A DNA stretch of 34,588 nt from a virus, in the IMG/VR virus record IMGVR_UViG_3300010389_000060, positions 1 through 34,588 of that record; one strand, written 5' to 3'. Below are positions 4,125 through 5,957 of this stretch, in pieces. The notes under the pieces are model-generated. The model saw only the letters and a program-made list of their open reading frames with translations, was not told the origin of the DNA and did not search any database. The translations under genes and the position numbers were made by a program. Position 1 is the stretch's first letter. Each line of letters starts with the position of its first letter.

Positions 4125-4576
4125 GTCAATCTTCCGGGATCTTCCGAGATGACGATCCGGACGCCTTGGTCGCTCGCTTTCTGCTGCGGCCAGAACCGGA
4201 TCGAGAGGACGTGGTCCGGGGTGTCGTCGGGCCACACGCCTGCGTCGACGAGTCCGTCGATCGCTGCCTTCACGACCGGCAGGCACGCGCCGACGTCTTG
4301 GCGTCCGGAGCGTCGAGCGGTGAGCGGCACGGCGTCGATGTGGCAGGGACCGACCGACCCGTTCGTCGGGAGCTTCGACGTGAGAGCGAGCCAGGCGAAC
4401 GCGTCGCGCCATGCCTTCACTACCGACGACCGGGTCGACCAGTGCGTCGACCGTTCCTTGTTGACGGTCAGGATGTCGTCGTAGTGGGTCAGGCTCCAGC
4501 GTCTGCCGTTCGCAGCAGTCCAGTCTCCGTCGCTTGGGTCGGGTATCGGTGAATCCAGTCGTGGCACGCTCGGCAT
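4121..4576 (-). CDS. rusA: RusA-family Holliday junction resolvase
   Basis: 151 aa. The RusA pattern is visible: an N-terminal LTVNKERSTHWSTRSSVVKAWR segment, then D94 in RQDVGACLPVVKAAIDGL, and D117-D118 in GVWPDD, matching the acidic metal-binding residues and conserved lysine (K103) of the family. RusA resolves branched DNA intermediates made by recombination-dependent phage replication or before packaging. The start at ATG 4576 makes an 88-nt overlap with the HNH gene; no later ATG or GTG retains the conserved part, so the overlap is probably real. Confidence 0.8.
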   Translation of the reverse strand: MPSVPRLDSPIPDPSDGDWTAANGRRWSLTHYDDILTVNKERSTHWSTRSSVVKAWRDAFAWLALTSKLPTNGSVGPCHIDAVPLTARRSGRQDVGACLPVVKAAIDGLVDAGVWPDDTPDHVLSIRFWPQQKASDQGVRIVISEDPGRLT

Positions 4577-4830
4577 GTCGCGATCGTATTCGATGCGTCG
4601 AGGATGTTGCCGCCACGCGCTCGGGTCAGCGGTTCGTGGAGGTCGGTCGCCCACCGGGTGCAGCCGGTCCACGTCGGGTCGACTGTCCAGATCGAGTCGC
4701 GTGCTTCGCAGCCTGGTCGAGCGGCGAGCTGTTCGAGCCGGAACTTCGAGCGGGCACGGTTCCGTCTCGCGGTCTTCGATGAGACGCGTCGGAGCGGGGT
4801 CTTGCGTTGGATCGGTCCGGAGCGCTTCAT
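4489..4830 (-). CDS. HNH endonuclease
   Basis: 113 aa starting at ATG 4830 (ATGA overlap with the C5 methyltransferase). The basic N-terminus (MKRSGPIQRKTPLRR) leads to an HNH fold: CEARDS, GCTRWATDLHEPLTRARGG, then N in LDASNTIATC and CRACHDWIH with the last zinc/metal residues. Such small HNH proteins occur in many phages, either near the terminase as packaging partners or beside recombination genes as here. The neighbours (RusA, annealing protein) favour a role in DNA recombination or processing. Confidence 0.75.
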   Translation of the reverse strand: MKRSGPIQRKTPLRRVSSKTARRNRARSKFRLEQLAARPGCEARDSIWTVDPTWTGCTRWATDLHEPLTRARGGNILDASNTIATCRACHDWIHRYPTQATETGLLRTADAGA

Positions 4831-5957
4831 GTCGTCCTCGCCCGGTCGACGAGCTGAATGAACGCGGCCGCGGCGCATTGAGGCACGACCGCGTTCCCGA
4901 GAGCGTGGAGAGACTTCCGGCGGCTGGTGAGCGTACCGGTCACCCATCCTTCGGGGTATCCCATGAGCCACTCGGTGAAGGCTGCGGAGAGCTGGTCGTC
5001 GATCTGAGGGTCAGGGGCTGCTCGACCCAGGACACGTTGCCATCGTTCGATCGCTGGGGCGTAGGGTCCGAACTGGTCGAGTCGTCGGTCTCGTCCGCCA
5101 TCAGCTTCGAGATCGAGTTGAGCGACGGTCCGCCTTGCTGGTTCTTGCCGTCCGATCCTGTTGCTGTCGTCGGTGTCGGCAGCAGACGCACGATGTCCGA
5201 CAGCTCTAGCTGACGATGGTCCTCGACCCGCTTGTCGAGATCCCGTCGAGATCCGGTCTCGGTCGCCACCGGTGTCGGTAGAAGCATCGCGATCGAGCCG
5301 AGGTGGATCGTGTTCCGGTTGGCTCGTGACGGCGACGAGCCCTCCTTCGAGTCGTGCGCGCACGGCGTCGGCAGCATCGTCATCGCGATCTGTGCTTCCA
5401 ACCGGTGCCGGTGCTCGCCCCTCGCTACCGCTACCGACGACGCTCCATTCTTGGTCGACGTCCTCGGAGTGCCAAGCAAGTCCCCACCATCGGAGGCGTC
5501 GATGTGGTGCTCCAACGGCGGACGCTGGAAGAGTCCCCCAGGTGATGCTGTACCCGATGTGGGCCAAGCCCTGAACGACTCGGGCCATAGCATCCCCGTC
5601 GTTTGCAGTAAGCAGCCCCGGCACGTTCTCGAAGTACAGCAGGGGTCGGTTGTCCATTCCCCGATCAACGAGGCGGCAGATGTCGTCGAAGAGCCATCGC
5701 TCATCGTTTACTCCTTTGCGTTGTCCAGCGTGTGACAGCGGCTGGCATGGGAACCCGGCGGTCAGTAGATCCACCGAGGGTAGTGAGTCGAGGGCGGTGA
5801 AGTCCCCGAGGTTGGGTGTGTCGGGCATGTTGGCTTCGAGCCATTCGTTCGCACCCTTGTCGATGTCCGAGACGAACACCGGCTCGACGTCGATGCCAGC
5901 GAGCCGGAGTCCTAGCTCCAGTCCGGCAATGCCGGTGCAGAGGCTGCCGACTCTCAT
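4827..5957 (-). CDS. DNA C5-cytosine methyltransferase
   Basis: 376 aa, start ATG 5957 (ATGA overlap upstream). Motif I is SLCTGIAGLELGL (residues 4-16). Motif IV, GFPCQPLSHAGQRKG, carries the catalytic cysteine; motif VI is YFENVPGLL; motif VIII is GAPHRRLRWW; motif X is HALGNAVVPQ. A GPYAPAIERW segment and FTEWLMGYPEGWV complete the C-terminal part. The protein probably methylates phage DNA for protection from restriction. The target-recognition region (about 5060-5460) has poor third-position GC in this frame, while a nested frame has good third-position GC there (see the 4940-5704 entry). Confidence 0.88.
   Translation of the reverse strand: MRVGSLCTGIAGLELGLRLAGIDVEPVFVSDIDKGANEWLEANMPDTPNLGDFTALDSLPSVDLLTAGFPCQPLSHAGQRKGVNDERWLFDDICRLVDRGMDNRPLLYFENVPGLLTANDGDAMARVVQGLAHIGYSITWGTLPASAVGAPHRRLRWWGLAWHSEDVDQEWSVVGSGSEGRAPAPVGSTDRDDDAADAVRARLEGGLVAVTSQPEHDPPRLDRDASTDTGGDRDRISTGSRQAGRGPSSARAVGHRASAADTDDSNRIGRQEPARRTVAQLDLEADGGRDRRLDQFGPYAPAIERWQRVLGRAAPDPQIDDQLSAAFTEWLMGYPEGWVTGTLTSRRKSLHALGNAVVPQCAAAAFIQLVDRARTT
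4940..5704 (-). CDS. Nested out-of-frame gene inside the C5 methyltransferase
   Basis: A 254-aa frame lying wholly inside the methyltransferase gene. Its ATG 5704 is preceded by AAAGGAG (5717-5711) at a 6-nt spacing; to make this site the host frame uses AAA-GGA-GTA codons, rare in this GC-rich genome. The product has AWPTSGTASPGG followed by LEHHIDASDGGDLLGTP, then three LPTP repeats (TMLPTPCAHDSKEG, LLPTPVATETGS, LLPTPTTATGSDGKN) and GGPSLNSI. From memory, this WPTSG/LPTPT pattern is typical of a phage protein family found beside cytosine methyltransferases. Over 5060-5460 the third-position GC is that of a coding frame. Function unknown; possibly part of the methylation system. Confidence 0.6.
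   Translation of the reverse strand: MSDGSSTTSAASLIGEWTTDPCCTSRTCRGCLLQTTGMLWPESFRAWPTSGTASPGGLFQRPPLEHHIDASDGGDLLGTPRTSTKNGASSVAVARGEHRHRLEAQIAMTMLPTPCAHDSKEGSSPSRANRNTIHLGSIAMLLPTPVATETGSRRDLDKRVEDHRQLELSDIVRLLPTPTTATGSDGKNQQGGPSLNSISKLMADETDDSTSSDPTPQRSNDGNVSWVEQPLTLRSTTSSPQPSPSGSWDTPKDG

Follow-up and report, generated by a model that had tools for sequence, protein, structure and literature searches.

The C5-cytosine DNA methyltransferase gene of the virus record IMG/VR IMGVR_UViG_3300010389_000060 wholly contains, in its +1 frame, a second gene, and sequence comparison finds this gene open and conserved across well over 100 related methyltransferases from phages and bacteria. The product of this hidden gene is probably the target-recognition partner of the methyltransferase, missed by annotations. 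The stretch of DNA analysed (34,588 nucleotides, positions 1 to 34,588 of the record, hereafter the window) is rather likely to encode a two-polypeptide C5 methyltransferase, in which the inner chain, encoded out of frame within the gene for the catalytic subunit, would act in trans as a modular specificity subunit. Long stretches of dual coding on one strand are considered rare in bacteria and their viruses. Here approximately 250 codons serve two frames, and the layout persists among distant relatives in a phage gene that is annotated very often; as a consequence of this wide conservation a second protein would be absent from many phage annotations.

A second reading frame within the methyltransferase gene

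The features of the locus are as follows.

4827..5957 (-): outer gene, C5-cytosine DNA methyltransferase, 376 aa, motifs I-X (PF00145; translation and start context)
4940..5704 (-): inner gene in the +1 frame, 254 aa, a putative beta-like specificity subunit (conserved in relatives; phrog_1008, E=2e-13)
5711..5717 (-): ribosome-binding site of the inner gene (Shine-Dalgarno sequence AAAGGAG), 6 nt 5' of its ATG (from the sequence)
5477..5704 (-): inner N-terminal segment (MSDGSSTTSA...LWPESFRAWPTSGTASPGGLFQRP), overlapping methyltransferase motifs up to VIII, with outer synonymous divergence suppressed
5099..5476 (-): inner modular LPTP array, where the outer frame reads an ADT/TDTG-type variable region (selection on the inner frame)
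5484..5513 (-): methyltransferase motif VIII, GAPHRRLRWW, outer frame
4941..4991 (-): methyltransferase motif IX, LSAAFTEWLMGYPEGWV, outer frame in the window

The outer ORF extends from an ATG at 5957 to a stop at 4827 on the minus strand and has the characteristics of a C5-cytosine methyltransferase, i.e. PCQ (motif IV), ENV (motif VI), motif VIII and GNxVVP (motif X), together with a Pfam match to PF00145 (E=2.9e-38) and M.HhaI as the best PDB sequence match. Motif IX (FTEWLMGYPEGWV) is read in the outer frame, which runs on to motif X, and the outer region between motifs VIII and IX, inspected in the search for a target-recognition domain, is poorly conserved and almost missing in locus L004. 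The inner ORF (5704-4940, minus strand) comprises 254 codons from an ATG start and lies in +1 relative to the methyltransferase frame, its end falling within the motif IX codons (GWV). An earlier, sequence-only reading of this DNA had proposed a gene nested out of frame in the methyltransferase, with its own AAAGGAG and ATG at good spacing and three LPTP repeats in its product. The sequence upstream of the inner ATG (GCAAAGGAGTAAACGATG) indeed contains AAAGGAG at 5717-5711 followed by a 6-nt spacer, the outer codons across this site being AAA GGA GTA AAC GAT, and the LPTP repeats lie at inner residues 111, 142 and 175, with an additional LGTP at residue 77.

The same reading had held that G/C third positions favour the inner frame, and measurement agrees: over 5477-4998, in 120-nt steps, GC3 is 0.72-0.87 in the inner frame versus 0.45-0.62 in the outer, which stands at 0.72-0.80 upstream of the overlap. 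The fall in outer-frame GC3 over 5060-5470 would also fit a methyltransferase that, in this contig, is decaying or carries compensating indels, an explanation that can be practically dismissed, as it is contradicted by the occurrence of the same layout in many independent contigs from many samples and in isolate genomes.

Layouts among related methyltransferases

Relatives with an open, conserved +1 frame share 40-75% identity with the outer protein. In the nearest viral relatives (L002, L003, L004, L006, L013, L014, L016, L093, L095 and L097) the +1 frame is open with an LPTP motif and, L016 excepted, the inner ATG coincides with the homologous outer xDER site or is no more than two codons away from it; conservation of both frames around 5480-5600, which had been suspected from the window, was seen in relatives as well. 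A census of loci identified 68 with a complete methyltransferase outside and LPTP only in +1, 15 mixed loci, a few with LPTP only in frame (clearly L042, L057 and L104), and eight split loci, with L122 forming a ninth by codon-position comparison. In the split layout (L008, L011, L012, L140, L144 and L163-165) the large chain ends in the variable region and the small chain carries LPTP fused to motifs IX-X, and in L104, L042, L057 and the mixed loci LPTP modules are found in cis between motifs VIII and IX. Within mixed loci L009, L010, L048, L080, L118 and L120-L125, the leading LPTP module, or the leading pair, is in +1 and ends at a stop, and later modules are in frame with the methyltransferase, as if the frame had changed between modules.

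Individual loci displayed further arrangements. In L007:2495-3579 (GigiOuiOui genes 65/66) the methyltransferase is spread over three frames, carrying the N-terminus, motifs VI-VIII, and LPTP with motifs IX-X, respectively. In L236:1481-2614 (Alfacinha1 gp46), WPTAG, WMTP and WPTP modules and a motif-IX-like LNPAFGCWLMGWP are all in the annotated frame. Methyltransferase and nested-frame segments occur in shifting frames, not so annotated, in L241:900-2100 (Klebsiella aerogenes NCTC9644 plasmid 3), which looks like a decayed or misread copy.

The variable region differs in tempo from the remainder of the gene, with L002 being 82-94% identical at the nucleotide level to L093 and L095 in the N-terminal, core and C-terminal parts, versus 50-56% across the variable region. 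Distantly related phages share modules of 30-40 aa, and these are swapped fast; such rapid exchange at the position between motifs VIII and IX is the behaviour of specificity modules. At the genome level, inner-type matches were present in 29 of 346 genomes of one actinobacterial class. Whole-genome searches gave both matches at 44 of 45 loci, and all 44 lay on a C5 methyltransferase, nearly all in +1 and three in frame; the possibility that the inner gene exists alone elsewhere is therefore not supported.

A proteobacterial type was also observed, in which motif IX itself is in the nested frame. In E. coli phage Bas70 gp36, ESSI2_ev129, AeroV_348, RcCWillis and other phages, motifs I-VIII and X are in the annotated frame, with WPTP-type modules and motif IX in +1 (in Bas70, QLNPAHSRWLMGYPPEWD). 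In a viral scan with the Bas70-type +1 protein, 60 of the 61 loci that show the motif IX pattern in the frame of the hit, among the matches listed, place the hit at +1 of the methyltransferase.

Stop codons and selection in the two frames

Expected numbers of +1 stop codons were obtained by redrawing outer codons from each gene's own synonymous codons, such that the outer protein and codon usage were kept. Across 75 viral loci chosen by the outer protein only, which are related and so not independent trials, and over a fixed stretch from 30 codons before motif VIII to 70 after, 11 stops were observed versus 201.8 expected, and 65 loci lacked any +1 stop versus 13.1 expected. Inner-frame stops in homologues, which could have counted against the nested gene, were thus confined to 10 of the 75 loci; seven of these have LPTP in the outer frame within the tested stretch, two more (L031 and L044) have outer-frame LPTP further on, and the remaining one is L014. 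In the nested subset (2 stops versus 161 expected) and the proteobacterial type (1 versus 93.8 for loci among the matches listed) the deficit was of the same kind, these two sets having been chosen on the inner frame and hence being biased. Controls were close to expectation, with 176 stops versus 153 expected at codons 5-62 of the same genes, 48 versus 53 in loci without a +1 LPTP ORF, and near-expected counts in the +2 frames. An origin as an artefact was rejected on the basis of the independent contigs and these calibrated stop counts, and the inner ORF is, as judged from the comparisons, a product of neither chance nor sequencing error.

Divergence by codon position gave a corresponding result. 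In the variable region after motif VIII, across 642 alignments among 90 nested loci, inner positions 3, 1 and 2 differ at 0.40, 0.20 and 0.22, respectively, and across 52 proteobacterial-type loci among the matches listed they differ at 0.28, 0.15 and 0.19. Inner third positions are thus twice as variable as first and second positions in the former set, which is the pattern of a coding frame, and in aligned examples from this region inner amino acids are better conserved than outer ones. By this evidence, the inner frame after motif VIII is under purifying selection and the outer frame is a passenger. The synonymous-site comparison across homologues that had been proposed for this locus also favours the nested gene, with outer fourfold-site divergence of 0.33 in the shared core versus 0.51 before the overlap and 0.53 after it, dropping to 0.13 where the inner frame encodes LWPESFxDWP.

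These patterns bear on the possibility that the inner frame is untranslated, with ADT-type and LPTP-type repeats being mirror readings of one GC-rich repeat and the openness a by-product of outer coding or module exchange. In GC-rich DNA, A-D-T codons do read as LPTP in +1, and modules do recur among distant phages; however, the stop deficit, the codon-position pattern and the synonymous-site suppression contradict this explanation, controls were near expectation and outer amino acids are the less conserved in the aligned examples, making it very improbable. We infer instead that the inner frame is translated.

Codon choice at the inner start was likewise biased. At the Asp codon from which the inner ATG arises, GAT is used in 41 of 53 loci, compared with 147 of 327 for Asp codons elsewhere (p=8e-6); at the Ser codon that would yield a GTG start in RSG-type loci, AGT is used in 10 of 38 cases versus 14 of 290 elsewhere (p=8e-5). 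The other RSG-type loci show no clear start at that site, and 34 of the 96 loci checked (nested relatives, GTRSG type) show no clear inner ATG, indicating that initiation is not uniform. Programmed ribosomal frameshifting from the methyltransferase N-terminus, producing a catalytic-LPTP fusion in place of or besides a separate inner protein, could account for several GTRSG-type and split loci that have no evident inner start near the usual site and in which the N-terminus and LPTP are in different frames. This explanation seems improbable, given the Shine-Dalgarno sequence and ATG at one homologous site in the window and most DER-type relatives, the codon choice biased towards making the inner ATG, and the two shifts that a full-length nested enzyme would need.

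Protein family and database matches

Inner residues 44-199 match positions 100-215 of the phrog_1008 profile (E=2e-13), the only PHROGs match, and the outer C-terminus of the window matches positions 216-321 of the same profile (E=2.9e-23). This family, already labelled 'DNA methyltransferase', was matched by all 62 inner homologues tested. The profile holds the LPTP part and motifs IX-X in one protein, whereas the window divides them between two frames, and its match to both the inner middle and the outer C-terminus indicates that the two parts form one protein in other phages. The family assignment, the target-recognition position and the precedent of two-polypeptide methyltransferases such as M.EcoHK31I are additions to the sequence-only reading.

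Other searches returned little. The inner protein of the window had no meaningful match in Pfam, NCBIfam, PADLOC or PDB; its 62 homologues had none above chance in Pfam and none in NCBIfam or among PDB chains. A viral-contig scan for close relatives returned nothing with the inner protein alone as query, but alignment-based scans succeeded, and E. coli genomes gave no DNA-level match. AlphaFold produced no confident fold for the inner protein (pLDDT 59) and low confidence (35-60) for the in-cis LPTP region, the in-cis model recovering only the methyltransferase core, so these models lend no support to a recognition domain. In one case, phiKX1_290 (L244:1513-2121), the annotated gene is the nested-frame protein, under the name 'hypothetical protein', and databases thus already contain some inner chains under no function; the inner gene was in none of the annotations of the other annotated nested loci examined. 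A full-text literature search, with most subscription papers outside its reach, found no report of the nested gene.

A candidate two-chain methyltransferase

M.AquI and M.EcoHK31I are two-chain C5 methyltransferases and several others function from fragments (PMC3404938), so division is tolerated by this enzyme class. Together with the position of the LPTP array between motifs VIII and IX and the rapid exchange of its modules, this tolerance leads us to infer a trans-acting specificity subunit. In the proposed mechanism, the outer frame would give a catalytic chain with motifs I-X, in which the stretch from motif VIII to motif IX is a polar filler of low conservation, and a second start inside the gene (AAAGGAG...ATG at 5704) would give a 254-aa +1 protein composed of a conserved N-terminal segment followed by LPTP modules of 30-40 aa. 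The inner chain would dock on the catalytic chain to form a complex and recognize the target in trans, each type of module conferring one specificity, and by swapping modules phages could change which host restriction sites are protected, i.e. the arrangement may serve an anti-restriction purpose.

A close precedent is M.EcoHK31I (YGGCCR), the small chain of which, in the 1995 work of Lee, Kam and Shaw, reportedly lies inside the large one in another frame, both being needed in vitro. The window resembles this reported nesting in having a second chain in another frame inside the first, and a categorically new system was rejected because of this precedent. However, motif IX is in the small chain of M.EcoHK31I and in the outer chain of the window, and the inner chain of the window bears an LPTP array and N-terminal segment; by the motif IX difference, the window appears to be a variant working like M.EcoHK31I rather than a member of its kind. 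The recognition domain of M.EcoHK31I has been described in its large chain (PMC3404938). Bas70 and its relatives have the M.EcoHK31I layout as described (PMC3404938), with motifs I-VIII and X outside and WPTP modules and motif IX in +1, and motif IX is in the small chain of Bas70, ESSI2, AeroV_348 and at least about 60 viral loci. The nested layout is apparently a widespread, unannotated variant of the two-chain kind. M.AquI (alpha, motifs I-VIII; beta, motifs IX-X) breaks between motifs VIII and IX, as do the split BellusTerra 80/79 and Micromonosporaceae L144 and L163-165, whereas the window is unsplit, its outer chain retaining motifs IX-X and its inner gene lying wholly within. Tandem recognition domains are known in the Bacillus phage methyltransferases SPR, H2 and relatives (PMC8936443), which share with the window, by layout alone, tandem modules between motifs VIII and IX of a phage enzyme, but there in cis and in frame rather than in +1.

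The position of motif IX in the outer chain of the window, unlike M.EcoHK31I, counts against a subunit role, and the outer chain might be active alone. A real inner gene could encode a product independent of the enzyme, e.g. a co-expressed anti-restriction or regulatory protein: selection shows coding and not function, the AlphaFold model has no docking or recognition domain, and all catalytic motifs are present in the outer chain. This alternative is considered unlikely, since the inner region was never found away from a methyltransferase in the genomic loci checked, some relatives have the same segment in cis as part of the enzyme, split relatives have it joined to motifs IX-X, and the nested frame of proteobacterial versions carries motif IX.

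If the inner chain is a specificity subunit, methylation specificity predicted from the annotated chain alone reads the wrong frame, and a natural trans-acting, modular target-recognition part is on offer. A broader proposition, which we regard as evenly balanced, is that phage C5 methyltransferases include a large class, spread over actinobacterial, proteobacterial and other hosts, in which the +1 frame of the catalytic gene holds the whole of an exchangeable specificity subunit, that module shuffling must keep two frames open simultaneously, and that the same modules have passed repeatedly between the nested, split and in-frame layouts as lineages evolved.

Adjacent to the methyltransferase gene, a short ORF at 4489-4830 (-) of the window (MKRSGPIQRKTPLRR...CRACHDWIHRYP) is HNH-endonuclease-like by eye, with no Pfam match. 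Its ATG overlaps the methyltransferase stop codon (ATGA), which suggests translational coupling of the two genes.
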